Below, in pieces: positions 9,445-64,000 of a stretch of 64,000 nt of DNA (its first letter is position 1; each line of letters opens with the position of its first letter). The translations under genes were made by a program, and so were the position numbers. The notes under the pieces were generated by a model that ran no database searches, had not been told where the DNA came from, and was given only the letters and a program-made list of their open reading frames with translations. Where the stretch lies: positions 12,212,944 through 12,276,943 of the forward strand of contig NC_087083.1 in the NCBI RefSeq assembly GCF_026151205.1, read 5' to 3'. This stretch comes from Bolinopsis microptera (lineage: Eukaryota > Ctenophora > Tentaculata > Lobata > Bolinopsidae).

Positions 9445-12400
9445 TTGCTAGTATTTTATGTATTTGTTTTCACTTCTGCACGTTTAGGCAGTTGCTCTTG
9501 TGACCAGAGTTTTAGAGTTATATATATACACAGGAGGGATGGGATAAAATCAAGACCACTTAACAGAAACAATGTCAGCCAAGTTGCATTAGACAAAACT
9601 GTCATTAATCTCTCGTCCAAAACAGTTACAAATGCTCATAAGTTTGTCTTCCACCTTGGAGAATCATTTGCAGTTACTCCTTCTAAAACGAACAGAGATA
9701 AACTAGTAGAAGATGTAAACTCCTGGGCAAACTCACTTAGAATGAGTTTCGTCCTCAGTAGAGTTGTAATCCCCACCCAAAATGTAGAAGAACATGAGAA
9801 AACCCTTGACCAGAAGGTAAAGCAAATGGAGAAAGTTCTAGGAATAAAAACCTCAAAGAAGAAGAATTTCTCTAACAGTGGTAATCATGCATTAGAACTG
9901 TTCATCAGCAATGTCAAGAAACAGATATCTAATCACCCTAGAAAACCAAAGCCAGCTCCTAGGAATGTAGACAAGGAGACTACAAAAGCAATCCAAGAGC
10001 TCAAAAGCTGGGATGATGCTGTAATTCGATTATTTGATAAAGGGACTGGGTTCTTTGTGTTAGACAAATCAGACTACATCAATAGAGTAGAAGCTGCTCT
10101 AAAAGATCAGAGCACTTTCAAACAAGTATCGGATCAACAACAACAGATCCACACAACCATCATCACCATTAAAGAGTGGGTTCTGAAATACTCAGCAGAT
10201 GCTGACTGCCCTGGCATGACCCCAAACTTTATGGAATGGGTAACACCTAGTGAAGAGGAAAATGAACCTGGAGTAAACTACATGAACCTGAAAGCTCACA
10301 AACCAGAGAAAAACTACCCTGGGAGACTTATCAGCACTGGATGTAACTCTTACATCAAGAACCTCTCAATATTCACAGCAGAAGAACTAAAGAAGGTAAC
10401 CCTGCCCCACTGCCTCATGGATTCTAATGATCTACTTATGAAGATGAAAGAACTCAATGAGTCAGGAAGATTGACTGGGAAGACCATCTACCACGTTACA
10501 TTTGATATTGTAAACATGTTCCCCAGCATTTCAAAGGAGATTGGACTACCAGCCTGTAGAACCTTACTAGACCAAAGAAGTACTAAACTTTTCTCCACAG
10601 ACTGCGTTATGGAAGCTTTGGAGATAACCCTGGATAACAACATCACTGTTTTCAATGGCAACATGTATGTACAGACAAGTGGAACTGCGATGGGTCCAAA
10701 TAATGCTTGCCAGTATGCAGACTCAGCTCTCAGCCCCTTGGACAGTAAGATCGTGGAGAGCCAAGAAATCACAACCCCTGAGTTCTATGGCAGATACCGT
10801 GACGACATATACATCACCTGGACTGAGTCACTGGAGAAGCTAGACCAGTTCCTACTTTGGCTCAATCAATACCATCCAAACCTCAAGTTTACAATGTCGA
10901 CACCTTCTACAGAGGGGACTGAATTTCTAGACCTGTTTATTTACTCGAAAAATTGCAAGCTAGAAACTAGGACGTACTGCAAACCTAGTGATGCCCATAG
11001 CTATTTACTCCCACAATCCTGCCACCCTACACACATAGCAGAGAATATTCCATATGGAGTAGCACATCGAGTGTTCAAAAACTGTTCAGAGGAAGAAGAG
11101 TATTTGAAATGTAAAATTGAATTTAGTGAATATCTAGAAGATAGGAATTACAATAAAGATCTTATCCATAAATCCTTTGAGAAAGTTGAGTTACTTAAAC
11201 GGGATGATCTGATTTCAAAAAACCTTACAAGCTCTAATAGTAAGAAGAGTGAAAGATGTTTTCCTTTAGTTTGTGATTTTGACCCTAACTTACCTCCAAT
11301 TGGTAAAATAGTTAACAAGAATAAATTTATCCTTGGCCTAGACCCCCTTTTAAAGTCTGTGATCCAGCCTAGTAAAGTATTTGTTTCATATCGTGGTAAT
11401 AAAACTATCAAAGAAACTTTAGTTCCGAGTAAACTTTCAGAAGATCGTAAGTATCATGAAGATAGTACTTTCAGCAGTACTTTCGATCATGTTGATAACC
11501 TGATGACCCAGATCAAAGTGCAATTGGAAAAGATCAATGATCATGTTTGTCCCTCAACGTCCACACAGAAATTTGATGAAGGTGAACTACCCAACAACGA
11601 CTCTATCGTTATGACCCCTAACACTACTTCCCCTCACTTTGCTCCATCTCAAATTTCTATAGACCCTGCATGTGACCCTTATATAACTTATCAGGAAGAT
11701 ATAGTGCCTGTTGAGCTTCACAGCAAACTTATAAAGCTGCTGGAGGACAGTAGTGCAGATTTTTCTTCGGTTGGTGGCAGCAGGGATGTCATCTACTTTG
11801 GTGAACATGGATACTGGTATACAGGAGCATATCATCAGGCAAAGGAAACTCCAGTAGAGATACAAGATCTTTTGGACTGTGTGCGCCCCTCTCTCCCCAA
11901 TAGGAAGAGCTGGCTGAACTCTTGCCTTGTAACAAGATATACAGGCAACAGTAGCCATATCCCTCAGCACTGTGACAATGAGGTACTTATTGACCCTGAA
12001 TCAATAATAGTCACTGTGTCTCTTGGTGAAGAACGCACAATAAAGTTCACTCATAAGTCGACTGAAAAGTCCTTAAAGCTCAAAGATGGAAGTGTGTACG
12101 TGATGTCCAGGTTGTCCCAGGAAATCTGGAATCATGGTATTGAACCTCTCACTAATGAAGAAGATGAAGAAGAATCTGATGAGAAAAATTCTGTGAGGTA
12201 CAGCTTTACCTTTAGGCATATTGCGCCTTACTACAAAAATAGCACAGTTTTAATTGGGGACTCAAACACTAAATACATTAAATTTGGTAAAGATGTTGGA
12301 ACTCTCGGAAAATGGGTTCCTGGTAAGCGAATGTGGGCTGCTAAAATTGACGATATTCCTGCTCCGAAAGACATAGGCCCTTATCGGAACATTGTTATAC

Positions 12401-12879
12401 ACACGGGAATCAATGATATTCGGGATGATTCCAACAGACCATCTACTAGAACACTTATTGCTAAGCTTAAGAAGAAATGTAGTGAAATTCAGCAATTTTA
12501 TCCTAATAGTAAAGTTCATATTAGTCTACTCTTGCCCACTAAATCACAGTTTGTTAACTCACGTATAGGGGAGTTAAACAGTTTAATTGTCGACATGGTT
12601 TATAATAGGAAAAACATGTTTATTATAGATAACTCTGTACTAGGTTCTGTTAACGGATGCATGCCTTCTAAGTATGGTCGATTCTCACGTGATGGCACAC
12701 CATTGGTCAATGATGTTGTACATCTCGGAAGAGAAGGCCTGAAAATATTTTGCATGAGTATAAAACGATGTATTGTACAACGTGGTGGAAGTCAGTCCAC
12801 GGAAAGATTTAAAGGTGGAAATGGTGACTATAGGAGTGCCCTAAGTAGGGGTAGTAGGGGTGATATCTTACCGATATGA
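9445..12879 (+). CDS. chimeric ORF: PLE reverse transcriptase fused to LINE AlkB-SGNH ORF1
   Basis: One open frame of 1144 codons covers parts of two elements. Residues 1 to about 665 are a Penelope-like RT: the N-terminal region with NLSSKT and DKGTGFFVLDKSDY, RT motif A FDIVNMFPSI (about 352), motif B GTAMGPNNACQYAD, motif C RYRDDIYITW (about 450), GTEFLDL, then the linker VFVSYRGNKTIKETLVPSKL. From about 665 on it is LINE ORF1: a short coiled coil, an AlkB-like 2OG-Fe(II) dioxygenase (about 748-927; HCD in PQHCDNE, distal H in WNHGI, arginines in RYSFTFR) and an SGNH hydrolase (about 935-1105; GDSN, GIND, DVVH). The N-terminal PHD of the intact family member is absent, so the LINE arrived 5'-truncated and by chance in frame. 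The stop overlaps the next ATG (ATGA). Whether the fusion is translated is unknown. Confidence 0.85.
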   Translation: MLVFYVFVFTSARLGSCSCDQSFRVIYIHRRDGIKSRPLNRNNVSQVALDKTVINLSSKTVTNAHKFVFHLGESFAVTPSKTNRDKLVEDVNSWANSLRMSFVLSRVVIPTQNVEEHEKTLDQKVKQMEKVLGIKTSKKKNFSNSGNHALELFISNVKKQISNHPRKPKPAPRNVDKETTKAIQELKSWDDAVIRLFDKGTGFFVLDKSDYINRVEAALKDQSTFKQVSDQQQQIHTTIITIKEWVLKYSADADCPGMTPNFMEWVTPSEEENEPGVNYMNLKAHKPEKNYPGRLISTGCNSYIKNLSIFTAEELKKVTLPHCLMDSNDLLMKMKELNESGRLTGKTIYHVTFDIVNMFPSISKEIGLPACRTLLDQRSTKLFSTDCVMEALEITLDNNITVFNGNMYVQTSGTAMGPNNACQYADSALSPLDSKIVESQEITTPEFYGRYRDDIYITWTESLEKLDQFLLWLNQYHPNLKFTMSTPSTEGTEFLDLFIYSKNCKLETRTYCKPSDAHSYLLPQSCHPTHIAENIPYGVAHRVFKNCSEEEEYLKCKIEFSEYLEDRNYNKDLIHKSFEKVELLKRDDLISKNLTSSNSKKSERCFPLVCDFDPNLPPIGKIVNKNKFILGLDPLLKSVIQPSKVFVSYRGNKTIKETLVPSKLSEDRKYHEDSTFSSTFDHVDNLMTQIKVQLEKINDHVCPSTSTQKFDEGELPNNDSIVMTPNTTSPHFAPSQISIDPACDPYITYQEDIVPVELHSKLIKLLEDSSADFSSVGGSRDVIYFGEHGYWYTGAYHQAKETPVEIQDLLDCVRPSLPNRKSWLNSCLVTRYTGNSSHIPQHCDNEVLIDPESIIVTVSLGEERTIKFTHKSTEKSLKLKDGSVYVMSRLSQEIWNHGIEPLTNEEDEEESDEKNSVRYSFTFRHIAPYYKNSTVLIGDSNTKYIKFGKDVGTLGKWVPGKRMWAAKIDDIPAPKDIGPYRNIVIHTGINDIRDDSNRPSTRTLIAKLKKKCSEIQQFYPNSKVHISLLLPTKSQFVNSRIGELNSLIVDMVYNRKNMFIIDNSVLGSVNGCMPSKYGRFSRDGTPLVNDVVHLGREGLKIFCMSIKRCIVQRGGSQSTERFKGGNGDYRSALSRGSRGDILPI

Positions 12880-15800
12880 CCTCAATAAACTTTAATATTA
12901 CAAGAGAGAGATGTCCAGGTTGTGATAGCAATGTACTAAGCCATCATAAAGTCATAATATGTGAGTGTTGCGATACAATATATCATGCCAAATGTTCTGA
13001 ACAGAGCTTTAAATTTGACCATGTTAAACAAATGTGGCACTGCAGTCAATGTTTCGCCTTCAAATCCCAAAGGTACAATCCTTTCAACTCAATTATTTAT
13101 GACAAATATGATCCCAACACTGTAGAAAGAGACGAAGATATGGAGACTATTTCAAACATTCTAAAAGACTGTAGGTCTTATAACATGACAAATTTCAACC
13201 GGCTGTCAAAAAACATACTTAACCATAACAAGCCGTTTATATCTATTGTGTTTAACAACATTGATGGGAACGCATCTAACTTTGACAGCTTTATTACTGA
13301 TATGAGTCAATATGGTGAGAAATTTGCAGTTATTGCGCTAGCTGAAACAAACATTGATGAGGAAAATAAAGATTTATACAAAATTGATGGTTACAGCAGT
13401 GAGTATAACTCCAAAACTGATGGGAAAAAGAAAGGTAGTGGCCTTGGTGTATATATTGACAATAAGTACCAATACAGCCGAATCGAAAAGTTATGTAAAT
13501 GCTCTGACAATCTTGAAACACTTTTTGTTGAGATCACTAACACAGAGGTTCCACAGATTGCTGGTGTTGTCTACAGGCCCCCTAGTGGTGATATTCTAGA
13601 TGCACTTGCTGAGCTTGACGTGTTGATGAAATTCCTACCGTCTAATAATGTAGCCTTGACAGGTGACTTCAATGTTGATCTTTTGGCCCAGGGACGAAAC
13701 ATAGCTGAATTTGAACAAACTATCTACAGTAACAATTTAATCCCTTTGATATCGATTGCCACCCATGCCAAGCCGGGTTGCAACGAAAGCTTAATTGATA
13801 ATATTTTAGTGAACTCTACTGAGCGTGTCTTAGGATCTGGAATTCTTGAATCCAAGATTTCCCATCATAACCCAATCTTCTGTTTCATATCGTGTAATAC
13901 TAAAGAGAGTCCAAATGATACCAAACTTAAACCTAAGTATGATTACTGTGAGTCTAATATAGAAAGCTTCCTTAATGATATTGGAAGGGATATCTACCGA
14001 TCGAACTTTTCGTATGATGAGGAAGGTTTTGAAAAATTTGTCGAAACTGTCCATGAAAAAATCGAACTGAATTTCAAATTGGACTCTACTGCTGGTTTTC
14101 AATCAAAACGCAATAGATTGATGAATCCATGGATCACTTCTGCGTTAATTAAATCTGTGTTTACTAAAGGCTTTCACTACAAGCGATGGAAGGCTTCGTG
14201 TACCAAAATCAACCCATTAGGTGAGGAAACTTTATATCTTAAGTATAAGGAGTATCGTTCTATCCTAAACAAAGCTATAAAATCTGCGAAAAAAGCCCAC
14301 TATGGAAAAAAATTTGAACTTGCTAAAGGAAATATTAAAAAAACCTGGGAATTGATTAACGAACTCAGGGGTAAATCTAAAAAAGATATAAAAGCATCAT
14401 TCTTAATTGATGGTCGAATTGTAACTGAACGCCGTGAGATTGCTAACGGATTTAACATCTACTTCTCGTCTATTGCTCGTAATCTTAATTCAAAAGTTCA
14501 ATCTTCTGTACCATCTCGTACGGTAACTGATGGCAATTTTATTAAGACGAAGTTTAAACAATACCTCAAGGGCAGAGAAAGAATAGTGAACTCTTTTTTT
14601 CTCAGCCCCTGTGACGAGGAAGAGATAAGTAAAATCATTGGTAGCCTTGAAAATGGGAAGGCAAGTGATATCTCTGTTAAAGTCTTAAAAAAGAGTGTAA
14701 ATTATCTGTCTGGTCATATCTCTAGATTCTTTAATTGGTTCTTGGACAATGGGGTCTTTCCAAACAAGCTTAAAACGGGCTCTATTACACCAATTTATAA
14801 AAAAGGAGACTCACGATGCCTTGATAACTATCGACCTGTTTCTACATTACCGATATTTGGAAAAATACTTGAAAAAATAATCTATAATAGGTTATATAAT
14901 TACCTCAGTGCTATGAACGTGATTTATGATCGACAATTTGGTTTTAGAAAACAACACTCAACATCTCATGCCGTAAACTATTCTGTCAATAAAATACTTA
15001 ATGAGATTGAACAGAAAAATCATGTAATTGGAATATTTATTGATCTAAGCAAAGCATTTGACACAATTGAGCACGATAAACTCCTGCATAAACTTGAACA
15101 CTATGGAGTAAGAGGTATTGCACTGAAAACTCTTGCTAGCTATCTAACAAACCGTAGCCAAGTAACTTCTTTTCAAACTGAAAAGTCGGACAAGTGTTCA
15201 GTTGAGTATGGTGTACCCCAGGGGTCAGTGTTAGGACCTCTACTATTTCTGATTTATATAAATGATATTGTGAGCTCCTCAAGCTTGGCTGAATTCGTCC
15301 TGTTTGCTGATGATACAAATATTTTTGTGACAGGTAGTTCAGCACAGGAAGCTTTTGAAAAAGCTAATCATGTAATGAAACAAGTCAGTAACTATATGGA
15401 GTCTAACAAGTTACATATAAATGCAGGGAAAAGTTGTTATATGCATTTTCAGCCAGGTTTGTCAAGAGCAACACAGACCTGTGCCAGAACACGGCCCTTT
15501 AACAGGAATCTAACGATTTTAATAGATGGCAAAAAGCTAGAAAAAGTTCAATGTACAAAGTTTCTTGGGGTGATAATAGACGAACAGCTAAGCTGGGAAC
15601 CACATCTTAATCATTTATCTTTAAAGCTGAACTCCAGTATTGTATCGATTAAGAGAATTTGCAAATTCATTCCCAAATCTGAATATTTGAAACTATACAA
15701 TGCTCTTTTTATGTCACATCTTAGCTATTGTATAAGTTGCTGGGGTGGGATCCCTAAACATAAGCTGAATAAAATCTTTGCAATTCAAAAACGATGTATA

Positions 15801-16675
15801 AGACTGCTATTTGGTAACATTCCCAATTTTGATCATAAAGAATACTATTTAACCTGTGCACGTTCAAGAACTTATAACGAACATATGGCTAGCAAGAACT
15901 ACTGTCTTGAACACACTAAACCGCTATTCACCGAGCAGAAAATTATGAACCTGGAGAATCTGCACATGTACCATACATTTATGGAATTATTCAAAATTCT
16001 TAAATTTGATGTCCCCCAGTCGATTAAAGATCTTTTCAAGTTCTGTCCTGGAAATGAAAAACTTCGTCTGATTGTCCCATTACTGAGGTTAGATATCTCC
16101 CAACAAAACTTTTTGTACACCTCTACGAAAATTTGGAATGACCTCAGCCCCTATGTATTCGAAATATGTGATGCTAATGTAGATGGGTTGATAATCCCGG
16201 GTTCTTCCAAGAATTCAGACTTATCAGCTTCGTCAGGTGTTATTAAATCTAACCTTAAAAAGCACTTGCTATCCCTCCAAAATCGAGATGACCCTAATAC
16301 ATGGTAACTAATCTATATTATATCTCAAACTCTACATCCGGTACGGCTATGCACACATGATATCTCTCTCTGCCATGAAACATGGCTAACCTTTTAAACT
16401 GTGATTCAAAACCTAAAGCTAAACTAAAACTCAACTGGGCTCTCCTTTGTCACCAAACTAAACCAATAAGTAATTTAAGATTATTATATTTTTCTATATT
16501 TGTATACTGTAATTAGTATATTGACGTACTGGATGGTTGAGGGGGTTTCAAGCACAGGTCACTCTCAAATCCTAAAGATAAGCAGTGGCCTTCGGCACTT
16601 GAAACCTCTTCAAACCTCCCCTGATTTATTTATTATTGATATTGTTTGATTGTGCCGTAAAAAAAAAAAATAAAT
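11440..16675 (+). mobile_element. 5'-truncated AlkB-type LINE inside the PLE
   Basis: About 5.2 kb: partial ORF1 (coiled-coil remnant, AlkB, SGNH), complete ORF2 (12876-16307), a 3' UTR of about 360 bp and a tail with 12 A residues at about 16657-16669 followed by TAAAT. The start is placed where PLE linker sequence gives way to ORF1-like sequence and is uncertain by some tens of bases. No clean target duplication could be recognised. The domain order matches the complete copy at 56679-62842, but the proteins are clearly diverged, so the two are separate lineages of one family. Confidence 0.75.
12876..16307 (+). CDS. LINE ORF2: PHD finger, APE endonuclease, reverse transcriptase
   Basis: 1143 codons, uninterrupted. 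Residues about 13-60 form a PHD-like C4HC3 zinc finger (CPGCDSN, CECCDTIYHAKC, WHCSQC). Residues about 125-345 are an APE-type endonuclease (NNIDGNASNFDSF, LAETN, VVYRPPSGD, LTGDFNVD, SLIDNILVN, SHHNPIF). The RT has ITPIYKKGD, NYRPVSTL, motif A FIDLSKAFDTIEH, motif B GVPQGSVLGPLLFLIYINDI and motif C LFADDTNIF. The C-terminus has no RNase H domain. The FADDT motif and overall layout fit the CR1/Jockey group. The ATG overlaps the ORF1 stop as ATGA, the usual arrangement for termination-reinitiation. All catalytic residues I can check are present. The PHD may bind histone tails and steer integration; that is inference. Confidence 0.9.
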   Translation: MTSINFNITRERCPGCDSNVLSHHKVIICECCDTIYHAKCSEQSFKFDHVKQMWHCSQCFAFKSQRYNPFNSIIYDKYDPNTVERDEDMETISNILKDCRSYNMTNFNRLSKNILNHNKPFISIVFNNIDGNASNFDSFITDMSQYGEKFAVIALAETNIDEENKDLYKIDGYSSEYNSKTDGKKKGSGLGVYIDNKYQYSRIEKLCKCSDNLETLFVEITNTEVPQIAGVVYRPPSGDILDALAELDVLMKFLPSNNVALTGDFNVDLLAQGRNIAEFEQTIYSNNLIPLISIATHAKPGCNESLIDNILVNSTERVLGSGILESKISHHNPIFCFISCNTKESPNDTKLKPKYDYCESNIESFLNDIGRDIYRSNFSYDEEGFEKFVETVHEKIELNFKLDSTAGFQSKRNRLMNPWITSALIKSVFTKGFHYKRWKASCTKINPLGEETLYLKYKEYRSILNKAIKSAKKAHYGKKFELAKGNIKKTWELINELRGKSKKDIKASFLIDGRIVTERREIANGFNIYFSSIARNLNSKVQSSVPSRTVTDGNFIKTKFKQYLKGRERIVNSFFLSPCDEEEISKIIGSLENGKASDISVKVLKKSVNYLSGHISRFFNWFLDNGVFPNKLKTGSITPIYKKGDSRCLDNYRPVSTLPIFGKILEKIIYNRLYNYLSAMNVIYDRQFGFRKQHSTSHAVNYSVNKILNEIEQKNHVIGIFIDLSKAFDTIEHDKLLHKLEHYGVRGIALKTLASYLTNRSQVTSFQTEKSDKCSVEYGVPQGSVLGPLLFLIYINDIVSSSSLAEFVLFADDTNIFVTGSSAQEAFEKANHVMKQVSNYMESNKLHINAGKSCYMHFQPGLSRATQTCARTRPFNRNLTILIDGKKLEKVQCTKFLGVIIDEQLSWEPHLNHLSLKLNSSIVSIKRICKFIPKSEYLKLYNALFMSHLSYCISCWGGIPKHKLNKIFAIQKRCIRLLFGNIPNFDHKEYYLTCARSRTYNEHMASKNYCLEHTKPLFTEQKIMNLENLHMYHTFMELFKILKFDVPQSIKDLFKFCPGNEKLRLIVPLLRLDISQQNFLYTSTKIWNDLSPYVFEICDANVDGLIIPGSSKNSDLSASSGVIKSNLKKHLLSLQNRDDPNTW

Positions 16676-35200: not shown

Positions 35201-36345
35201 CGTTACAGACGAACTTAGACTGAACCACTAGTCCAGTTGGCAAGGTTGTCGTATTTGAACACCTAGTCTCATCGAGGTCTGTGTTTGTGCAGTCTTGAAC
35301 ACCGTCACAAACCCATCCCCATGCATTTAGATCTGTGAGGGTTACAACAGGATCACCTCCTTTTTGGGTAAACTCACAAATTTGGTTGCCACATAATGTA
35401 TCATCACTGTCCCTGTTCGTTATGCTGTATCCTGCAACTCTTCTGTCACAAGCTTGGTAAAAGTAAGGATCCTCAGAGCAAGCTTGTCCATGTTTATTCG
35501 GCCAGAACTTAGTGCCAAGGTAATAAAACTCTTCAGAAGCATGGCACTTGTACCTCTCTCCGCCCCATCTGTCATTTGAGCATCTGTACTTCAGAAACCC
35601 GCCATGTTCTCCAATATGACACGATTCAACGTCATCTGAAAGACAATGTAGTAAAATTGAAAAAGAAATTACTATAAAATCTCAGCCAAACTTCTCTCAT
35701 CAAACTACAGTCCTGACAAAATCTAACTTTTTTTTACGGAAGAGCTAAAGAGATGTAGATGTTTGAGGGGTAGGGGAATTTGCCAACCCCACATCTAAAA
35801 ACATATCCGTCAGGTTACCTGGTCTTGAAATACTATCTTTCGATTCTGTTGTTACAAACAGCCAAGAAGTAACTGAATATTTAAAATTCGTTAACATCCA
35901 TTTGGTTTCAAATATCCAAGTAGTTTCTGGACTCCCATATAACCAAGTAGTATCGTAACTCGAAACATCTGTTTTTAATTCTGATGGTCGACCTGTCACC
36001 GAATGTTTTTCCGGAACAGTTGTTGAATCTGAATTGGTAGAAATTACACGCTCAGACAATAACAATAAGGATTGAATTTTTGCAACTGATAAGGCGGTCG
36101 TTGTCTTGTGAAAGGGGGTTCAGGGTCATTCGCTTCCGGGAGAGAGTTCGGTCTGTCCCTGATTTCCTGGGTGTCCTTCGTCCAGTGTGACTCCGTTATT
36201 GGCTCCGAGCAGGGACAGAGAATACTGATAATGCTGATTATAAATCTATAAATCTACCTGAATGCGAAGATTCCGATTTGGGTGATGAAGAGGCTAAATC
36301 AGACAGGATCAGTATCAAAATGAACGTCAACATTTTACTCTGCAT
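32259..36345 (-). CDS. LDLa-rich 7TM receptor (LGR/GRL101-like), three exons
   Basis: Exon 1 (36345-36258) encodes MQSKMLTFILILILSDLASS, a signal peptide. The large exon 3 (35635-32259) holds an extracellular region of about 600 residues with eight or nine LDLa-like modules (e.g. CDGGRDCDDRADEVNC, CDDNFDCLDKSDEC), then TM1 at about residue 730 to TM7 at about 1060. A probable cassette exon (36028-35819, 210 nt) keeps phase 1 on both sides; with it the protein is 1224 residues. The 7TM core is LGR-like: LIILISFGDLLVGCYLLVVA in TM2, LSIVRF in place of DRY, DFCCWVPF in TM6, NSVINPLLYD in TM7. LDLa-bearing receptors of this class couple to G proteins; relaxin receptors and snail GRL101 are relatives. 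No leucine-rich repeats are visible here, unlike those. The tail has a KDIEKDIEKDIDKDID repeat. Ligand unknown. Confidence 0.9.
35819..36028 (-). other. probable cassette exon of the GPCR (Ser/Thr-rich spacer)
   Basis: Acceptor CCAATTCAG|AT and donor AGACCAG|GTAACC bound 210 nt that stay open and fit phase 1 to phase 1 between exons 1 and 3. The 70 residues are rich in Thr, Ser and Trp with repeats like DTTWLYGSPETTWIFETKW and TSWLFVTTES. Exon 1 also joins directly to exon 3 in phase, so skipping would give a receptor shorter by 70 residues. Confidence 0.6.
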
Positions 36346-43900: not shown

Positions 43901-44399
43901 TGGCAGGTGCATTACAGGAAAGGATATAGTCTGGGAGTTTTCCAGTTCTTGCATTTGCATCGCCACACATAATAACTTCTCCCTTTTGACGTAGTCTGAT
44001 ACAGATAGAGTCAAGAGCAGAGAAGGTATTAGCAGTATAATCTGGATTCTTCTTGACATAGGACGAGTATGCAGGGCTAATATAATAACATACCAAAAAT
44101 AGGTCAAAATCAAGTTTAAAAAAGTTCTTGTCCAGTTTAGCAACAATAATGTCATCAGATTCATTACAAAGCACACTAGAGACACCTTTTCTTAGGCCAT
44201 TTTCAGCAAGAATGCAGACCCCTCCTGAGCGTGAATTTTTGCGGTTGCTATTAAAAGAGAGGTATCCTTCAATCTTAACTTGCTTCTTTGTTTCTTGGAG
44301 ACAAAGAATGTTAGCTTGTTTGAGGATTGACAAAAATTCGCTATTTTCAAATTTGTTAGACCCGTCTCCTGTGCTGTCCTGGATGTTCCAGGACATCAC
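40908..44399 (-). pseudogene. LINE ORF2 with one in-frame stop: APE endonuclease and RT
   Basis: From ATG at 44399 the frame runs through an APE endonuclease (MSWNIQD, LQETKK, CYYISPAYSS, MCGDANAR, VDYFVITSW, YSDHCPLVL). It meets TAA at 43496-43494 and continues in the same frame as an 846-codon ORF: ITPIYKSGNPFSPDNYRAIA, motif A CFVDLRKAFDTV, motif B GTEQGHPLSPDLFKIYINDL, motif C LLWADDLVLLAL, VNIKKTKIL, and a C-terminal Cys/His segment CTFC...HVLTDC. Full length would be about 1164 codons. The stop falls in the spacer between the two domains, where a single substitution explains it. All catalytic motifs are otherwise present. Clade not determined. Confidence 0.85.
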
Positions 44400-44448
44400 A
44401 GCGACTTGATCTCGTGATACTTGTTTTTTCTTGAATTTTAGGGTTAAT

Positions 44449-45304
44449 CTAACGCTCTGTAGGGGGCTGCTTTCTAGGGGATCTCATACCAAAGGCACGG
44501 TATAGGCCAAGTTTAATATTCAAACAAAGTTTTTTCAAACCATACTCTGAGACATGGAGTTGGTCCTCCTTCAACGGGTTAGGAGAGTCTTGGGATGACT
44601 CAGCAGCAGAGATGGCACGGGAAAAGTTTCCAGTATTGTTTACAGTATATAGATTATAGGCGGCGGTAAAAGTCACTTAACCCTCTTTTAGCTGAGACAA
44701 ATTGTGTTATTTCTGAGACAAATTGGTTGGTAAGTTCACTGATTAATCCAGGGGTTGGGGTGGGTAGGGAGATGACAACCTTTGCGCTGGAGCTCGAGAG
44801 GAGTTTATCGATGACTGATTTTGCATCCTCAATCGCTTTATTAACAGAGCAGGTTCTGTATCTGTAGTCGTTGACTCCAAGCTGGAGAATGTAACAGTCG
44901 ACCTCTGGCTGTTTAATGACATCTCTCATACAGTGGTCTTTTATCATGTCAGTATAAGAGCCTACTTTCATTTTTTCCACCTTGAACCCAGAGGAAAATG
45001 ACTCAGGTAGAAAGTTGTTCATCTGGGAGTCATGTAGGAGTAGAACCTTTTTCGGTTTTCGCGTTTGTCTACTAGGGCTGTGGGTTGGGTGGTTCTGGTT
45101 TTGAGGATGAGGCGATGGCTTTTTTCTTGATGGGTTGGTGCGGTCATTAAGCTGGAGAGACTGTAGGCAGGCCTTAGAGTCATCTACTTTGTTCTTAATT
45201 GCAGTGACATCTGCTTCGAAGGCTTTAAGGGAGGTGGCAGTTTCATGTTGTTTTTCGTTTATGCTGCTCATTATATCCTCTAACTTTTCAAGTCTCTTGT
45301 CCAT
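44449..45304 (-). pseudogene. LINE ORF1 with frameshift: coiled coil and SGNH esterase
   Basis: 45304-44654 encodes a coiled coil (MDKRLEKLEDIMSSINEKQH...), a basic Pro-rich linker (PSRKKPSPHPQNQNHPTHSP) and the first part of an SGNH hydrolase (VLLLHDSQMN, LQLGVNDYRYR). Near 44676 the frame shifts by one base, and the second frame, to 44449, contains the expected last block (DQLHVSEYGLKKL, with the catalytic D and H). The nucleophile block reads HDSQ instead of GDSN. Esterase-containing ORF1 proteins are known from CR1-like LINEs. Confidence 0.75.
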
Positions 45305-52714: not shown

Positions 52715-53735
52715 CTAAAAAGCTATTAAAAACATTAATGGTTTCGTATAAAATTTAAGATTTAAACAATTACTACACTTCAAAATACTATTAAAAATGT
52801 CCATGTAACAAACTAATTGACTTAACCAGTCTCTTGCATCTTGACGTTTCAAAATAATTAATTTGCAGGGTCCAGGATTATGCAATGGCTGTAATGAGTC
52901 TAACGATTGTTTTAATTCACTCATGCCTGCAGCTGCGGTGTGCTCATTGGCGCAGAGTGCAGTGAGCTGTTCAGATGAAGCTGAGGGTGAGGAGGGTTCT
53001 AAAGCTGGTCTGGATGACAAATGTTCAAGGTCCTTCTGAAGTCAGCGATATTGGTATTGATTGATTCTAATGATTTGTCATGGAGCTTTATTTCATTATT
53101 CAGCCCATTAAGCGAGTTGTCTTTAAGAAGCAGGTGTTGAAGATGAGCGTCGAATTGGCCAAGTGTATCAATTCTGTTACTGAATTCAACAAAGTCAATA
53201 TCCTTAACAAGCTTGCAACATTTGGCAGAGGGTTCTAGTTGAGATGGAATAAGTGCGGTTTCTAGCTCCAGGTTTGACTGCTGTAATGATAAGGTGTTCC
53301 TGCAGATATGGCAGACATCGAGGTCGTATTTCATGGTTGGGACTGGTGCTACATAACAGAATGGGCATAGATATTCTACCAGTTTGTTGATTTGGGACTG
53401 TCCCGTACCCTTCATGCTTAAACAATTCACATGCCAAAACTGGTGACATTTTGAACAGTCAATCTTCCATGAATCTGAGGAATTGCCACAAGGGCACTGG
53501 TCTAGGTCTCTGTGGTTGGTAAGCAGGGCAGCAGTATCTCTAACTGGAACCACATTTAGGGCTGTCTGCAGCACATCTATATCCTTTTTCTGAGATGACT
53601 TCTTGGCTATTTTTTTTCTGTCCTTTGCGTCTGTAGGGGTGTTTGTGAGTGATGTCCGCCGCGCCTGTTACCAGAGGGTTTGATGCCAACGGTCTTTTGA
53701 CTTGACATTTAGTCCCTGGCTTTCCACAATTTCAA
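52715..53735 (-). pseudogene. ORF1 N-terminal relic of an AlkB-type LINE
   Basis: The minus strand is open from about 53735 without an ATG: a basic linker (TDAKDRKKIAKKSSQKKD), a PHD-like finger (DQCPCGNSSDSWKIDCSKC, HQFWHVNCLSMKGT, YLCPFC) and a coiled coil (RIDTLGQFDAHLQHLLLKD, NEIKLHDKSLESINTN). Near 53010 the frame shifts, and a second frame continues (SSRPALEPSSPSASSEQLTA) to about 52870 before degenerating. The finger matches ORF1 of the intact element at 56.7-62.8 kb (CPCRASSEGKEWLLKCCRC, HWHASCSNLKG). The AlkB and SGNH parts and ORF2 are missing. A LINE that keeps its 5' part and loses its 3' part is unusual and implies a later deletion or rearrangement. Confidence 0.65.
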
Positions 53736-56605: not shown

Positions 56606-57311
56606 TCTGGTAAAGACTAGATTAGCGGAAAACGTTTCTAACCGCTTTAATGTCTTGTTCTGCTCAGCAGTTTTAGTCAATGAAACAAGAAATTCAATGA
56701 AACAAGAAATTTAATTTTAGCACATTTTACAGAATAAAAAGATGTAAAACAATTCATAAAATATAATGCCCATTTGGTGTATGACTTTTTGTCCTTGACT
56801 GCTAGTTTGGTTTTGGAAGGACAGGTAACTAACGGGGCAAGGAATGCGCGTGCCTGAAAGCTTTTGCACACACCGAAACGCTAGTTCAGTTAGGTTTTTA
56901 GAGACAGGGCTCATTTTAGGACTAGAAGAAATTTGTTAGTAGACATTACGGGGTTCTGTTTATAGTTGTTACTATAGGTTGCAGTCTTGTTGTGACAAAA
57001 AGTCTACACTAAAACATGCTTTAGTTTATATTGTGTGGTTCAAGGATATAAAATGTGGCTTCAAGGTGGATATTAAAGAGCTTGCGAAAGATTATGGCCT
57101 TTGTATCAATGGTTATAATAAGCTATAAATATCTTAAACTATACAGTGCTAATTAAAAATTTCTTTATACTTCATTCTCAGATTAGATTTAAAAATTCAA
57201 AAAATATACATTTATTTTATTAATACCTTCTCACACATTCTTTACTCACAGGACAAGACTTGGAAAACAGTAGCCTAGAGGAATTTAATTGAGATGTGTG
57301 TGAACAGCCAG

Positions 57312-60300
57312 TTATAATGTTTGGAAAATAATATTTGTGCAGTCAAAATCTTTTACGGTCCAATCAAGCAGGGCGTGGTTATGCTGATTGGCTAATAGCG
57401 CACTTTTAAGTTTTCCTCGCAAGCACATTACACTAGTAGTAAAGTCAGTCATTCTGAACTTTGGGGTTAAAATGTTAAAAATTTTGGTTGACCTAGTGTT
57501 GTGGTTGTCAGGTGGGTCTACCTGACAGATAAGAAGGCAGGGTTTCCTCGACGAACATGTGTAACCCTCATATAGGGATATTGGAGCACGGAATTTCATT
57601 ATCTTGTAGAGCTCGAGGTAACTGTGGTATGTATAGAGATTTTGTATAGCTAGAATATTATTATGCTTGAATATCGGTTTGGTGTGTTCTTTTATGAAAA
57701 ATTTTTGGTCAAGTTTCTGGTGTCCTATAGGCCTAGTACGTGCACAAGTCTTAAACTTATCAAGGTACGCCAGCCTATCACCAAATAGTACTCTGAGACA
57801 GTACTTCTGAGCAGTAAATATTGAGCTTATACGTTGCTTAGCTGCCCCACCCCATACAGATATACAGTAGGAAAGATGTGATTCGAACAGAGTATAATAT
57901 AATTGTTGATGTAGAAATTCTGGAAGGGAGCAGCGAAGTCTACATAAAGTGGATGTGGAATGATTTAGGGTTCGCTTAAGAGCTTTAATGTGATCTTCCC
58001 ATGATAGGTTCTCGTCAATTATAACACCCAGAAACTTTGCGGATGAAACCTTTTTGATTGGATAGTTGTCTATAGTTAGTACAGGTTCAGGGTGTGATAA
58101 AATCTCTGACTTAGAACCTGCCATGTTGGGTTTGAAGTGTATGTAGCAGCACTTGGACATGTTTATATGTAACTTATTCGCTCTCATATAAGACTGTAAT
58201 GATGACAAAAGCTCATTTCCTCGTTCATATGCCTCACGTTTTGTTTTGCCGACAACAAATATATTAGTATCATCAGCAAAGGTAACAAATGATCCTAGTT
58301 TAGAACTGTTTGTGATGTCGTTCATATAAAGAAGAAATAGGAGAGGTCCAAGAATTGAACCCTGTGGGACACCAAATTGAATAGATAGGGTATCTGATTT
58401 TTCTCCTACAACTTCAGTGTATTGTTGCCTGTTTGTTAAGTAGCTTTTTATGAGGTTATTTGCAACTCCTCTCACTCCACATCCCTCTAATTTTATAAGA
58501 AGTGTTGAATGATCGATGGTGTCAAAAGCTTTGCTAAGGTCAATGAATATTCCTAAAACATGATTCTTAAGTTTAAGAGATTTCGTAATTAAATCTACAG
58601 AGTAATTGACTGCATGCGATGTAGAGTGAGATTTCCTAAATCCAAACTGTGTCTTCGATATAACTCCCTGGGAGCTAACAAATCCGTATATTCTAGAATA
58701 TATGAGCTTTTCAAAGATCTTACCGAAGACGGACAGTGTGGAGATAGGACGGTAGTTCTCGATTTCTTCTGGGTTACCTTTCTTATATACAGGTGTTATT
58801 TTACCAGTTTTCAGGACATCAGGAAATATACCTTGGGTCATAAGGATATTGAAGTAATTCGATAATACAGGTGCAATTACATGAGATGACTTTTTTATTA
58901 CACTTATGGGAATGTCACTGGCTTTACCATTTTCGAACTCTCTTATGATTTTCAATATTTCGTTCGAGGAGCAATCTTCTAACCTAATATTTTTTTCATT
59001 TCTTGGGTTCAGGAAGTCATAGAAAGTTTTCATGGGTAATATAGGCAGGCCATTAGATAGATTATTCAGTGTCTCATTCAGCTTTGGTGCAATAGAGACA
59101 AACCAAGCATTGAATCCATTAGCAATTGCTCTTCTATCAACTATTCTTTGGTTATCAATGATAAATGGGGGCTTGGTTTGCCTCTTCTTTTTGCCTCTGA
59201 GTTCGTTAATAATTTGCCAGGTTTTCTTGCTGTTTTCACAGTTGTTTAGAATTTCGTTACAGTAATGCCAACGTTTGGCAGCTTTAATGATAGCTTTGAG
59301 CATCCTACGATAATCACTAAATACTTGGTATAGCAAGATATTACCACCAGGGTTCTTATTGGTAACGGTGTCAGACCACTCCTTACGTAGTTCATGCTTT
59401 CTTTCTACAGACTGGATGATACTGTCTGTAATCCATGGGTTAAGTTTGGGAGTTCTTTTTGTCACTTTCGGTACCTCCAGTTTGCAGTGTTTGTCAAGTG
59501 TCTGGTCAAAACATGCCGTAAACTCATCAAATTTTGTTGAAGGAGTGAGCTGGTTTACCTTTACCTCAAGTTCAGTTACAAAGCTTTTCAATTTGGAACT
59601 TGAGTAATCATAATAGCGGACATGTTTCTGAGGCTCTGTACTGCGAGGGGTCTTTACTGAAGTGAAGGTAAATATAGGGGCATGCTCACCAAGCCGTTCT
59701 TCAATAACACCTGATAAGACTATATTCTCAATTTTATTTGTTAAAATGTTATCGATGCAGGAACTTTTACAGTTTTGACGAAAATGTGTTGCAATGGAGA
59801 TAGTCGGGTAAAAGCCGTTTCTGTATAAAGTATCCTCAAAGAGCTGGGAACTGGTAGAAATATTAAGTATGTTTGAGTTAAAGTCTCCCAACAAATTGAC
59901 AGTTTTCCCATTTAGCTGCTTTGCAGGTAGTTCCAGGGTTTCACAAAAGCTATCAAAGCAGCCATTAGGGGGTCGGTAAATGACTCCATGAACAATTTTG
60001 CTGCCTGCGCTATCTGTGGTTTCAACAAAGAGGCTCTCAATATTTGTAGTACAGTGTGATACGTTTTCTAAGACCACAGTATTTAAATGGTCAGATACAT
60101 AGAGTGCAACACCTGTGCCTTTTTTCTTACCTGCCAATGTTTCTTGATAGAATCCTGTGTATGATGGAATTTGGTACAGGCCCTGCTGTGCAGGATCAGT
60201 ATTGGTTTCAGCAAGACCAATCATATCAAACGAGTGCCCTATACTTTTGAGTTCAATTAGGAAGCTATCAAAGTTAGATGCGTTTCCATCTATATTGTAG

Positions 60301-60677
60301 AATAAAGTTGATAACATAGATTTTTTTGAGGAATTGAGCTGCTTGATTGCATTTAAGAACTCGAGTTTAGAGTAGCGACGGCAACGTTCAAGTACAAGGG
60401 CGTATGATGCAATTAAGGCATCTTCCTGGTTTCTATTATCATAAAATCTATCAGAATCTATAGATTCCTCATCAGATGGAAATGGGCAGTACCGTTCCTC
60501 TGCAGAACTGGCACACTCGCAGCACATCCATAGTCCATTTTTGCATGAGTATTTAGCTGATTTGAAACACTTAGTATGGATGGCATTATTACAGTTTTCA
60601 CACTCTAGTAAAGGTTGTCCGATGTTAATAGATCTACTACATGGCTCACACACATCTTTAATCATTTTCATAATCAT
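57312..60677 (-). CDS. LINE ORF2: PHD finger, APE endonuclease, reverse transcriptase
   Basis: 1121 codons. PHD-like finger at residues about 9-55 (CEPCSRS, CENCNNAIHTKC, WMCCEC). APE endonuclease at about 115-335 (FYNIDGNASNFDSFL, LAETNTD, GVIYRPPNG, LLGDFNSN, SCIDNILTN, GEHAPIF). RT at about 620-880 (ITPVYKKGNPEEIENYRPIS, FIDLSKAFDTIDH, GVPQGSILGPLLFLLYMNDI, TFADDTNIFVVG, SAKFLGVIIDENLSWEDH). It is the counterpart of 12876-16307 in every domain, at a similar length. The start lies 5 bases after the ORF1 stop (TAG TAAAA ATG), so translation by reinitiation is likely. No RNase H. CR1/Jockey-like group. No disabling mutation seen. Confidence 0.92.
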   Translation of the reverse strand: MIMKMIKDVCEPCSRSINIGQPLLECENCNNAIHTKCFKSAKYSCKNGLWMCCECASSAEERYCPFPSDEESIDSDRFYDNRNQEDALIASYALVLERCRRYSKLEFLNAIKQLNSSKKSMLSTLFYNIDGNASNFDSFLIELKSIGHSFDMIGLAETNTDPAQQGLYQIPSYTGFYQETLAGKKKGTGVALYVSDHLNTVVLENVSHCTTNIESLFVETTDSAGSKIVHGVIYRPPNGCFDSFCETLELPAKQLNGKTVNLLGDFNSNILNISTSSQLFEDTLYRNGFYPTISIATHFRQNCKSSCIDNILTNKIENIVLSGVIEERLGEHAPIFTFTSVKTPRSTEPQKHVRYYDYSSSKLKSFVTELEVKVNQLTPSTKFDEFTACFDQTLDKHCKLEVPKVTKRTPKLNPWITDSIIQSVERKHELRKEWSDTVTNKNPGGNILLYQVFSDYRRMLKAIIKAAKRWHYCNEILNNCENSKKTWQIINELRGKKKRQTKPPFIIDNQRIVDRRAIANGFNAWFVSIAPKLNETLNNLSNGLPILPMKTFYDFLNPRNEKNIRLEDCSSNEILKIIREFENGKASDIPISVIKKSSHVIAPVLSNYFNILMTQGIFPDVLKTGKITPVYKKGNPEEIENYRPISTLSVFGKIFEKLIYSRIYGFVSSQGVISKTQFGFRKSHSTSHAVNYSVDLITKSLKLKNHVLGIFIDLSKAFDTIDHSTLLIKLEGCGVRGVANNLIKSYLTNRQQYTEVVGEKSDTLSIQFGVPQGSILGPLLFLLYMNDITNSSKLGSFVTFADDTNIFVVGKTKREAYERGNELLSSLQSYMRANKLHINMSKCCYIHFKPNMAGSKSEILSHPEPVLTIDNYPIKKVSSAKFLGVIIDENLSWEDHIKALKRTLNHSTSTLCRLRCSLPEFLHQQLYYTLFESHLSYCISVWGGAAKQRISSIFTAQKYCLRVLFGDRLAYLDKFKTCARTRPIGHQKLDQKFFIKEHTKPIFKHNNILAIQNLYTYHSYLELYKIMKFRAPISLYEGYTCSSRKPCLLICQVDPPDNHNTRSTKIFNILTPKFRMTDFTTSVMCLRGKLKSALLANQHNHALLDWTVKDFDCTNIIFQTL

Positions 60678-60682
60678 TTTTA

Positions 60683-62821
60683 CTAAGTGGGGTTGTTAGA
60701 CCCCACTGACTGGTTGTGTTTTCCACGTCTTGTCCGCTCTTGCCTCTCTCTCACATACACCCAATGCTTCACACATCTCACAAATTTGGTAATACCATAA
60801 ACTCCTAAATGAATATCATCACCACCTCTGGTCAGGTTGGTGGCAAGGAGTCCCCTACTATCTAAGAAGTGGCCAACTCCAAGGTGCCACACACTCTGGT
60901 TGAAGTTGGCACTTAACATTTCTCCAACAAGCCGATTGAAGGTCATAATGTTTTTGTTCATTTGAGGCAATCTTGATGGGAGGACTGCTGCGACGAATAT
61001 TTTGATACTTGGGCAGAGCTTTCTTATCTGTTGAATCTTCAAGTGGAGAACGTCAACCAGCTGATGGATTTCATTCTCTCCTCTAAGGTTTTCTACCCGG
61101 AGGTCATTGGTACCACAAACGATAACAACGTTGCTGTACCCAATGCAGCGACAAGGGTCAATCAAACTGACTTTACCTGCCTTGACTCTTTCACCAGGGA
61201 AAGACTGGCCCATAGTACCAGCACCACACCCAAACTTGATTGTTTTGGTGTTCGAATCTCCCATAATGAGCGTGCTTCTTTTGAATTTGTTGTTAATGGC
61301 TCTAAGGGTAATGGAAAATCGTCCGTGTATGGCCGGGTTGACTTCAGTTTTTTGGGTGGCCTTGATTCCATGCTTGAACCAAGCTTGTGAGGAACGAGTC
61401 ATAATATAGGCCGAGTTGGATTCCAGGGACATTTCAGTCATTTTTGTAGGTGAATGGCCTTCATGGACAGGTACAAAGCTTATCTTTCTTACTTCTCCTA
61501 TTGAAATTGTGGCTATTTCGGAGTCAGCAAGTATTTCTTGCTCATCGTCACAGTGGAAGGGTAACATGCTTTCCTCAACCCCAGTGCTAGGAGGGAAGTA
61601 GTTTATGAGCACAGAGTTAGGCTTGTGTGTAAGTTTGCACTGGGAGGTGACTCTATCAATAGCAGCTGCTAATGGTGGTGGGATGGCTGGAGAGGAGGGG
61701 GCGTTTGTGTCTCCAGAGTATGTGTAGCTTTCTCCATATTTAAGGACTGACCTTCCGTTCATCTGGCTGAACTTACCAGCTTCTTTGCACTCAGTCAGAA
61801 AACTGGTGACCTCATCAAGCAGATTTTTGTCTAGGATGTCTACTTGGTAGTCCTTAATCGGCGGCATTACACATTTGGGGAGGGCTACTGTTGACCTCAT
61901 CTCTTGTTTGACTGCTGCTGGAGGGCCCATTTGAGGGCTTCTGGATTTTTGGAAGGAGTAAATCTCTTCACTAAGTTGCGACAGTCTTGACTCAAGTGAA
62001 GATATCTCCACGGTGGGTATGCTGTTGGATACAGCACTCGAGATGGCATCAGATACAGCTTGGATGTTTTTGCTGTAGTCGACGCTAAACTTGAGAGCTT
62101 CATCCAATTTAGACGCGGTGCTGCTGTTTGGCTTGGGATGGATTGATGTGAAGCACCATGGACATTCCCAGTACTGAAGGATGGCATCAAGACCAATCTG
62201 TTGTGGGGAGCCACTTGTAATCTGGTTTGCTCCCTTGAGGTTGCTGCAGGAGGCGTGCCAATGCTGAGAGCATCTGCAACATTTGAGAAGCCATTCTTTG
62301 CCCTCAGAGCTTGCTCGACAGGGGCAGTTACCTTTAATGGCACGTTGCTTTGGACTTCCTTGATCTTTTTCTTCTTCTTCTGTATGGAAGGGTGGGAACG
62401 GTTTGTAAATAGGGCTCATAGGGCTATGAGGACTATCTCTTAGGCCACCAGGGTCGATTATGAGGCTTGGACTAATTTTTAGGGTCAGAGATGTAGGTGG
62501 CTGTAATGTTGATGGTCCCGGTGAAGCAACAGTAAGCTTTTCAGTTGGCAGACTGTTTGATCTTCGCCGTCCTGAGATGTTGGCTGCAGGGTTCTTCTGA
62601 TTAGCCTTGCTTGTGAGGGGGCTCTTTCTGTGAAGATGATTAGTCACTTTAGGGGAATGAGGTGGAGTAGCCTTAGCCTTAACAGATGCTGCAGGAGAGG
62701 TGTTTCTGGGCGAGCGTCTGTTTTGTGGTGGTGGTGTTGGAATTCTCTTCATGACTGTGGATTGATCACGGGGATGTGCTGAGTGCCCTCTGGGCTGCCA
62801 CCACCGGCGAATTAGCTGCAC
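60683..62821 (-). CDS. LINE ORF1: PHD-like finger, AlkB-like dioxygenase, SGNH esterase
   Basis: 712 codons. Residues 1-160: basic, Pro/Ser-rich, probably RNA-binding. About 164-235: PHD-like finger (CPCRASSEGKEWLLKCCRC, HWHASC, WECPWC). About 240-300: coiled coil (SSLESRLSQLSEEIYSFQ), likely for multimers. About 317-510: AlkB-type 2OG-Fe(II) oxygenase with the lid-like YGESYTYSGD, metal ligands HCD in LPFHCDDE and H in FKHGI, and 2-oxoglutarate arginines in RFSITLR. About 517-677: SGNH hydrolase with GDSN, VCGTNDLR and DDIHLG. Esterase ORF1s are known from CR1-type LINEs; the dioxygenase is the unusual part. AlkB enzymes remove methyl groups from N1-A or N3-C in DNA or RNA. Action on the element's own RNA or cDNA is inference. 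All catalytic residues are present. Confidence 0.9.
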   Translation of the reverse strand: MQLIRRWWQPRGHSAHPRDQSTVMKRIPTPPPQNRRSPRNTSPAASVKAKATPPHSPKVTNHLHRKSPLTSKANQKNPAANISGRRRSNSLPTEKLTVASPGPSTLQPPTSLTLKISPSLIIDPGGLRDSPHSPMSPIYKPFPPFHTEEEEKDQGSPKQRAIKGNCPCRASSEGKEWLLKCCRCSQHWHASCSNLKGANQITSGSPQQIGLDAILQYWECPWCFTSIHPKPNSSTASKLDEALKFSVDYSKNIQAVSDAISSAVSNSIPTVEISSLESRLSQLSEEIYSFQKSRSPQMGPPAAVKQEMRSTVALPKCVMPPIKDYQVDILDKNLLDEVTSFLTECKEAGKFSQMNGRSVLKYGESYTYSGDTNAPSSPAIPPPLAAAIDRVTSQCKLTHKPNSVLINYFPPSTGVEESMLPFHCDDEQEILADSEIATISIGEVRKISFVPVHEGHSPTKMTEMSLESNSAYIMTRSSQAWFKHGIKATQKTEVNPAIHGRFSITLRAINNKFKRSTLIMGDSNTKTIKFGCGAGTMGQSFPGERVKAGKVSLIDPCRCIGYSNVVIVCGTNDLRVENLRGENEIHQLVDVLHLKIQQIRKLCPSIKIFVAAVLPSRLPQMNKNIMTFNRLVGEMLSANFNQSVWHLGVGHFLDSRGLLATNLTRGGDDIHLGVYGITKFVRCVKHWVYVRERQERTRRGKHNQSVGSNNPT

Positions 62822-62847
62822 CTCAAATTATTTGTTATATAGTAGTC

Positions 62848-64000
62848 CAGCAAGATAAACAGATTGATGACAGCGTCGTACTCGTCAAAAGTTTATTTTG
62901 TTCTTAAATCTACTGCTATTTATTCTCATCTGAGAGTGCAAACTCTCTCTTTTCTGATTGATTGTTCTGGTATTGTTTGCAATTCTGATGGTTCCAAATT
63001 ATCTTAGAGGCAATATTTATAAAAAAAAGTTGTACGGTACAGTCCGCAACAAATTTTTATTACAACGAAAATTTTGTAATGATCAGTGTCTAATATCACA
63101 TATCATCTTCATCAGAACGGGGTGAAACCTGGTTTCGGTTTCTTCACGTTCTTGTTGACGATCTTGACTGTCGTAGTTGTTTCTCTCTGGTAAAGACTGG
63201 TAAAGACTAGATCAGCGGAACACATTTCTAACCGCTTTAATGTCTTGTTCTGCTCAGTAGTTTTAGTGTCCAGCAATATAAACAGATTGATGATAGTGTC
63301 GTACTCGTCAATAGTTTATTTTGTTCTTAAATCTACTGCTATTATTCTCTTCTGAGAGTGCAAACTCTCTCTTTTCTGATTGATTGTTCTAGAATATCCC
63401 ATTTTGTGATAGACTGATACCTCTCAGTATGATCGACATTAAATTTGTGCTAACTTTTAAATTGGCACACAAATTACATGTAATTATGTCATCATTGGAA
63501 GGATTCGCTCGATAAATGCCGTCAACAGCATTAGCTACTTGGTCAACGATGTAACCAATACTTCGATTTGCTCTTTTAGCAACTTGCAGAAGTTCTGTCA
63601 ACCGTGGTACATTATTTTCTGTCAAAGCGTCCAGCAGTCTTTGGTGAAACGTCAGCTTCTTATTGCAAGCCGTCAATTTCTTTGTTAGATTAAATGCTGC
63701 AAGTCTTTCCCTTTCTTCTAAAAGTTTAACACTTTTGAGAGTGCAAACTCTCTCTTTTCTGATTGATTGTTCTCTTATTGTTTGCAATTCTCATGGTTCC
63801 AAATTCTCTTAGAGGCAATATTTATAAAAAGAAGTTGTACGGTACAGTCCACAACAAATTTTTATTACAACGAAAATTTTGTAATGATCAGTGTCTAATA
63901 TCACATATCATCTTCATCAGAACGGGGTGAAACCTGGTTTCGGTTTCTTCACGTTCTTGTTGACAATCTTGACTGTCATGTCAATCTCGTCATCAAGTCG
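62848..64000. repeat. local duplications downstream of the LINE
   Basis: The 37-bp passage GAGAGTGCAAACTCTCTCTT... to GATTGATTGTTCT occurs at about 62932, 63353 and 63737. The stretch 62932-63175 is repeated at 63737-63990 with few differences. The stretch 62848-62968 is repeated at 63270-63388. The stretch 56606-56678 is repeated at 63202-63270. The unit includes a near-palindrome (ACAAATTTTTATTACAACGA and following). The last copy runs off the window. Confidence 0.8.
63389..63787 (-). CDS. unrecognised helical ORF between direct repeats
   Basis: 132 codons from ATG at 63787 to a stop at 63389: MQTIREQSIRKERVCTLKSV, LLEERERLAAFNLTKKL, LTFHQRLLDALTENNVPRL, VDQVANAVDGIYRANPSNDD, ITCNLCANLKVSTNL. 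It is predicted mostly helical, with a CxxC near the end. Its first about 17 codons come from the 37-bp repeated passage, which also lies at the other edge, so the segment is bracketed by repeats. It could be an exon of a locally duplicated gene or the cargo of a repeat. No family recognised. Confidence 0.35.
   Translation of the reverse strand: MQTIREQSIRKERVCTLKSVKLLEERERLAAFNLTKKLTACNKKLTFHQRLLDALTENNVPRLTELLQVAKRANRSIGYIVDQVANAVDGIYRANPSNDDIITCNLCANLKVSTNLMSIILRGISLSQNGIF

Follow-up and report, generated by a model that had tools for sequence, protein, structure and literature searches.

An ALKBH2/3-type dioxygenase joined to an SGNH esterase in ORF1 of a recently active ctenophore LINE

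Introduction

Why the ORF1 proteins of LINE retrotransposons have enzymatic domains is an open question, and the role of the esterase found in some of them is still a proposal. The closest described proteins are the Type IV ORF1 products of CR1/L2 LINEs, such as ZfL2-1, which are two-ORF, APE-type elements with an SGNH esterase behind a linker (PMC3905857, PMC4120745). PHD fingers are common in CR1/L2, and in one L2 subgroup such a finger sits at the probable start of ORF2, as it does here (PMC4120745). A 2014 survey placed esterase ORF1s in two vertebrate groups only (PMC3905857, PMC4120745). The available text of the 2014 paper (PMC4120745) distinguishes ORF1 types I–V and does not name AlkB, and no AlkB domain is named for Type IV ORF1 in the excerpts of either source.

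AlkB-type dioxygenases are known from other selfish elements that copy RNA. Plant RNA viruses have captured an AlkB domain, which lies in the replicase polyprotein rather than in a retrotransposon ORF1 (PMC544882). A Ty3/Gypsy retrotransposon of the orchid Phalaenopsis encodes its own AlkB dioxygenase with conserved cofactor residues; this is an LTR element with a separate AlkB ORF, and the product is an ALKBH5 homologue that acts on m6A in vitro (PMC9289625). The human enzymes ALKBH2 and ALKBH3 are stand-alone host repair proteins and, like AlkB, have m1A and m3C among their substrates (PMC13390031).

Here, we describe a LINE in a 64,000-nucleotide stretch of the Bolinopsis microptera genome (the window) in which an ALKBH2/3-like AlkB domain is fused to an esterase inside ORF1, unlike the arrangement in the orchid element. 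The parallel with virus-borne AlkB domains drawn in a preliminary description of this DNA is a fair one. Its suggestion of novelty needs narrowing: no AlkB-bearing LINE was found among the top-ranked matches in the full-text literature searched (a body of text that lies mostly outside subscription journals), but a retrotransposon-borne demethylase has already been published in the orchid (PMC9289625), so the LINE could not be claimed as the first demethylase-bearing transposon.

Results

Organization of the element

The features of the element are listed in Table 1. ORF1 lies directly upstream of ORF2 on the same strand, and its open frame proved to be uninterrupted, as the preliminary description had it. 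ORF2 contains a reverse transcriptase (Pfam RVT_1, E = 7.5e-37, above the cut-off) and an endonuclease (Exo_endo_phos, 8.3e-5, slightly under the cut-off). A PHD/C1-like finger at its N terminus (60513–60650) is additional to the finger in ORF1 and falls below the Pfam cut-off.

Table 1. Positions of features of the two AlkB-bearing LINEs and of the leader arrays (window numbering unless a contig is given)
Feature	Position	Strand	Remarks
Whole LINE copy	56678..62846	-	~6.2 kb; 3' end near 56677/56678, 5' end inside spliced leader
ORF1 open frame	60683..62821	-	712 codons GTG to stop, 0 internal stops
ORF1 counted from first AUG past leader	60683..62752	-	689 aa; junction sequence
ORF2	57312..60677	-	1121 aa: PHD/C1-like finger, APE-type endonuclease, reverse transcriptase
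Spliced-leader remnant	62822..62846	-	last 25 nt, abutting ORF1 exon
PHD-like zinc finger, residues 166–226	62144..62326	-	PHD_4 E 0.0048, below cut-off; C/H pattern
AlkB-type Fe(II)/2OG dioxygenase domain, residues 318–512	61286..61870	-	Pfam, ALKBH2/3 profile match, fold model
YTYSG nucleotide-recognition-lid motif, residues 366–370	61712..61726	-	row alignment
HCDDE: Fe ligands H423 and D425; E427 aligns with ALKBH2 Glu175	61541..61555	-	
H484, distal Fe ligand	61370..61372	-	row alignment
RX5R motif, R501...R507 (2OG binding)	61301..61321	-	row alignment
SGNH esterase domain, residues 513–700	60722..61285	-	catalytic blocks and CE2 fold match
Paralogous uninterrupted copy of LINE-flanking sequence (natural empty site)	63197..63390	+	flank matches
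Second, divergent AlkB-SGNH LINE ORF1, 5'-truncated, within Penelope-like element	11472..12879	+	
ORF2 of second LINE	12876..16307	+	identity to first LINE ORF2
Leader-GTA tandem arrays	C3:13511055-13533420; C5:21341875-21352054		

The element has the hallmarks of a LINE: dispersed copies, a shared 3' end and a variable 5' end. The 3' end is common to most copies, with 36 of 39 other long genome matches stopping at query positions 923–930 (window 56671–56678). No LTRs were found by self-comparison of the window, in which the repeats seen sit in flanking sequence. The LINE had been called intact; this is correct as far as both ORFs and the 3' terminus are concerned, whereas the 5' end retains 25 of the 41 leader bases described below. 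The flanks at 56607–56677 and 62840–62968 match the empty site at 94.4% and 94.6%, respectively. This site and the existence of copies that are 99–100% identical show that the element moved recently.

Spliced leader and start of ORF1

In two families, full-length copies share a 41-nt leader at their 5' ends. Its last 25 nt were found without any change in 18 of the 30 loci L001–L030, at one of two alternative acceptors: 6 adjoin ORF1, and 12 use a distal acceptor, which gives RNAs with a longer 5' region. (Besides the window copy, these are L002–L005, L007–L009, L014, L016, L018 and L020–L026.) The leader of L006 has one mismatch, while L015 has a variant leader at the same acceptor.

Followed by GTA, the leader occurs 179 times in the genome and 0 times in the control. 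Of the first 100 such places, 47 belong to a pair of tandem arrays, one on contig C3 (35 places, spacing ~591 bases) and one on contig C5 (12 places, ~857), which are probably spliced-leader RNA genes. A published leader from Hormiphora (PMC8527503) is very similar by alignment to that of the element. Taken together, the copies, the arrays and the likeness to Hormiphora indicate that the element RNA is trans-spliced before insertion.

We considered the possibility that the copies without the ~0.5–0.8 kb between leader and ORF1 had instead lost a 5' UTR intron by cis-splicing. This was rejected in favor of trans-splicing, because longer copies have GATGTAG or GACTAGC after the leader, with no GT donor, and because the leader is identical between families that are otherwise 60% identical. 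The tandem leader-GTA arrays, the different leader of L015 and the resemblance to the Hormiphora leader argue in the same direction.

The last leader base of the window copy is at 62822, and the bases GTG, from 62821 on, open the exon. This GTG had been taken as the start of ORF1, a reading that we reject: it represents the first bases past the spliced-leader junction, and the first AUG in this RNA is therefore at 62752 (residue 24 of the open frame). A leader copy on the opposite strand was also seen beside a Penelope-like element at another locus (L040).

The AlkB domain

Residues 362–507 of ORF1 match the Pfam model 2OG-FeII_Oxy_2 with 63.9 bits (cut-off 31.2) and E = 3e-17, in agreement with the preliminary description, and all the residues named there (HxD, distal H, RX5R and a YxYSG lid) are present, as Y366-x-Y368-S-G, H423-x-D425, H484 and R501-x5-R507. 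When AlkB domains of the genome were scanned singly against the AlkB profile, 9 of 9 matched. H423, D425, E427, H484, R501 and R507 are present in 51, 51, 51, 49, 48 and 48 LINE rows, respectively, which is every covering row of the 51; these rows are related copies from about six families, and 2 are gapped at the distal H and 3 at RX5R. The same six residues occur in 19 of 19 aligned AlkB rows, including 3 that are host-like. The structure prediction called for in the preliminary description gave a double-stranded β-helix, and the predicted model matches ALKBH2. The E-values, the occurrence of further copies and families in this genome, and purifying selection (see below) exclude a chance match.

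The SGNH esterase and the PHD-like finger

The SGNH hydrolase of the preliminary description was also borne out. The match alone has E = 0.03, under the Pfam cut-off, yet all 48 rows that span the GDSN, G[T/I]ND and DxxH catalytic blocks expected of a Type IV esterase ORF1 retain them (3 of the 51 being gapped), and 47 of these 48 have the block-II Gly. The fold model resembles CE2-type esterases (2waa, E = 5.8e-9), and 2waa has also been reported as the top match for the CR1 group-7 esterase (PMC4120745). The PHD-like finger is less secure, as its profile match lies under the Pfam cut-off (Table 1), but its C/H pattern, judged by eye, is kept among families (6 of 6 representatives shown). A fragment elsewhere in the window (53347–53496) has 33% identity to this finger over 61 positions. 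In sequence order, the ORF1 protein of this recently active, two-ORF LINE comprises the PHD-like finger, then a linker, then the ALKBH2/3-type dioxygenase, which has all of its catalytic residues, and finally the SGNH esterase.

Copies and families in the genome

The genome searched comprises 232 contigs with a total of 264,652,675 bases. A search of it with the ORF1 protein gave at least 63 matches (63 of 1348 candidates were scored), a lower bound in which some matches are two halves of one copy. Residues 33–707 or more are covered by 23 of the 63, and 21 of these 23 have no stop. The identities of the full-length matches fall into bands of 99–100% (five, including the window copy), about 83–86% and about 60%, and rows of about 42% identity span residues 93–712.

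The AlkB Pfam model gave at least 151 matches (150 of 587 candidates scored), a few of them host-like; every match listed was above the Pfam cut-off. Eight frame lengths (approximately 551, 593, 611, 646, 676, 707, 777 and 843 aa) were each found at more than one place, and some frames exceed 3000 aa. One representative of each of the eight classes was inspected, over the AlkB stretch. The 843-aa class carries AlkB, linker and SGNH, and a 3366-aa frame has the reverse order, SGNH then AlkB. (In this frame, at L061, C12:8337500-8340500, long degenerate repeats lie beyond SGNH-AlkB.) Related LINE families of this genome retain the AlkB-SGNH pair, and the two domains occur in both orders. The remaining frame classes are probably LINEs as well. 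Among the AlkB matches listed, six have a leader copy about 0.7–0.8 kb upstream; these frames are ~646 aa long in four cases, 611 aa in another and 382 aa in the last. No relatives were found in viral contigs.

In a tree of 19 AlkB rows, 14 formed one clade (support 99/97). The 843/777 class fell outside it; branches in this tree are long and its deepest nodes are poorly supported, and the AlkB domains of this genome may not all form a single lineage.

Selection on ORF1

dN/dS was calculated by the Nei–Gojobori method with codon bootstrap for four pairs: three among L002 (near-identical to the window copy), L006 (~86%) and L007 (~83%), and one from the second family described below. Distant pairs were left out because of synonymous saturation, and near-identical pairs because they have too few changes. 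For the AlkB domain, the three pairs gave 0.113 (0.062–0.179), 0.101 (0.056–0.169) and 0.156 (0.084–0.270), and the second-family pair 0.190 (0.083–0.377). Since the upper limits are well below 1, the AlkB domain is constrained, that is, under purifying selection. Elsewhere in ORF1, values were 0.035–0.148 for SGNH and 0.365–0.819 for the N-terminal region. The N terminus provides only a weak contrast, because its intervals overlap those of AlkB in 2 of 4 pairs and because, between L002 and L006, AlkB has the higher dN (0.092, against 0.074 for the N terminus).

Between L002 and L006 or L007, the synonymous distance leaps from ~0.1–0.4 in residues about 24–230 to ~0.6–1.9 in residues 264–520, a pattern that suggests that the window subfamily arose as a mosaic, by recombination.

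Other elements in the window

A second LINE in the window has an ORF1 with 30.6% identity to the first over 409 positions (E = 4.7e-35) and a Pfam AlkB match of 1.5e-18, and an ORF2 with 41.0% identity over 1118 positions (residues 5–1096 of 1121). Copies of this family are mostly 92–100% identical, one at 99.86% over 2905 bases.

The ORF1 of this LINE forms part of a 1144-aa in-frame chimera (9445–12879) with a reverse transcriptase that we take to be Penelope-like from its motifs; no Pfam reverse transcriptase match was found in that part. The chimera might be read as a two-RT fusion protein, a Penelope-like RT with AlkB-SGNH, a reading that was rejected because the two kinds of copies separate at a DNA boundary at 11467/11472. 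Matches to Penelope-like copies extend no further than residue 688, and those to the main LINE copies set in near residue 671; the start lies earlier, at residues 611 and 642, in two LINE rows that have stops or a lower identity. The chimera was thus made by insertion, when a 5'-truncated LINE landed in a Penelope-like element, and would mislead gene annotation.

A third LINE (40908–45304) looks 5'-truncated. Over 179 positions, its ORF1 piece shares 72.6% identity with the final part of an 843-aa AlkB frame (L074), and none of the AlkB queries used matched this LINE. A 994-aa frame at 32259–35243 looks by eye like a G-protein-coupled receptor with LDL-receptor repeats.

Discussion

Subtype and probable substrates

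A profile of nine AlkB domains from the genome was searched against solved structures. The best matches were ALKBH3 (E = 2e-25) and ALKBH2 (4e-25), followed by ALKBH8 (1.3e-12), E. coli AlkB (3e-9), ALKBH1 (0.011) and ALKBH5 (0.022), while FTO was absent at E up to 1. In Foldseek, ALKBH2 ranked first for both fold models, and upon structural realignment the top match was ALKBH2 or ALKBH3. The fold scores of FTO and ALKBH5 are near the best, and the models separate the subtypes less sharply than the profiles do. The HxD, H, RX5R and lid motifs and the equivalents of Glu175/Glu195 are shared with the human ALKBH2 and ALKBH3; this acidic residue near the active site is named in PMC3985658. By profile rather than by tree, the domain is placed with ALKBH2/ALKBH3, which directly reverse m1A and m3C, and not with the m6A erasers ALKBH5 and FTO. 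The preliminary description had proposed m1A, m3C and m6A-type marks as substrates; this likeness favors m1A and m3C and weakens the m6A option.

Proposed template cleaning by ORF1p

We propose, with a probability of about 0.5, that the AlkB domain of ORF1p strips m1A and m3C, which block reverse transcription, from the element RNA and/or cDNA, in a protein that also carries a putatively membrane-acting esterase and serves a trans-spliced RNA. The host spliced leader would bring the element RNA into the mRNA pool of the cell. ORF1p would then assemble on its own RNA, where AlkB would remove N1-methyladenine and N3-methylcytosine, whether these were enzymatic marks or alkylation damage; single-stranded cDNA might be an additional or alternative target. 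Both modifications lie on the pairing face and obstruct reverse transcription, so that a cleaned template would raise the yield of full-length insertions. Methylated nucleosides impede reverse transcription, a problem for which AlkB serves as a remedy (PMC8053708, PMC7968990). The esterase may act at membranes, as was proposed for ZfL2-1 ORF1p. The esterase ORF1 proteins in RepBase are described as being without a structural RNA-binding domain (PMC3905857), so a nucleic-acid enzyme would fill a gap here: AlkB would supply a nucleic-acid-binding domain plus an activity. As several kilobases are copied from one RNA molecule, cleaning of the template in the element's own particle would be the simplest account of the conserved catalysis.

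Alternatively, the domain might strip m6A from element or host RNA and thereby evade silencing by reader proteins, a role already suggested for the orchid Ty3/Gypsy element. A transposon-borne AlkB with m6A activity in vitro does exist (PMC9289625), and the fold scores of FTO and ALKBH5 given above fit this view. We consider it unlikely, since the orchid protein is nested among ALKBH5 homologues (PMC9289625), whereas the present family shows no such nesting by profile. The AlkB subtype differs from that of the orchid case, and the substrate is thus probably different.

The main substrate of ORF1 proteins is the RNA of the element, which weighs against a role in DNA repair, in which an ALKBH2-like activity at the target site or the cDNA-DNA joint would protect integration intermediates rather than RNA. 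ALKBH2, a dsDNA enzyme (PMC3985658), is among the top matches, and 17 of 19 AlkB rows retain R357, which seems to correspond to ALKBH2 Arg110; ALKBH3, which acts on ssDNA (PMC3985658), scores equally well, however, and we regard such a role as improbable. Finally, AlkB might mainly substitute for an RRM and keep nucleic acid bound within the particle, as the absence of structural RNA-binding domains from esterase ORF1ps (PMC3905857) could suggest, but this is very unlikely, because pure binding does not require the Fe and 2OG ligands that are invariant in all covering rows.

Implications

A broader reading, which we put forward tentatively and as somewhat doubtful, is that ctenophore LINEs possess an old, clade-wide, self-encoded template repair of ALKBH2/3 type in their RNP protein, which has persisted across deep divergence in several families and occurs in both AlkB-SGNH and SGNH-AlkB orders. 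If template cleaning by ORF1p is correct, these elements would carry out reverse transcription with built-in removal of m1A and m3C from the RNA about to be copied. The acquisition of AlkB by selfish elements that copy RNA, seen in plant viruses and in the orchid Gypsy element, is extended here to animals and to LINEs, and a demethylase that is constrained in several families would offer a direct handle on whether methylation of RNA or cDNA limits retrotransposition.
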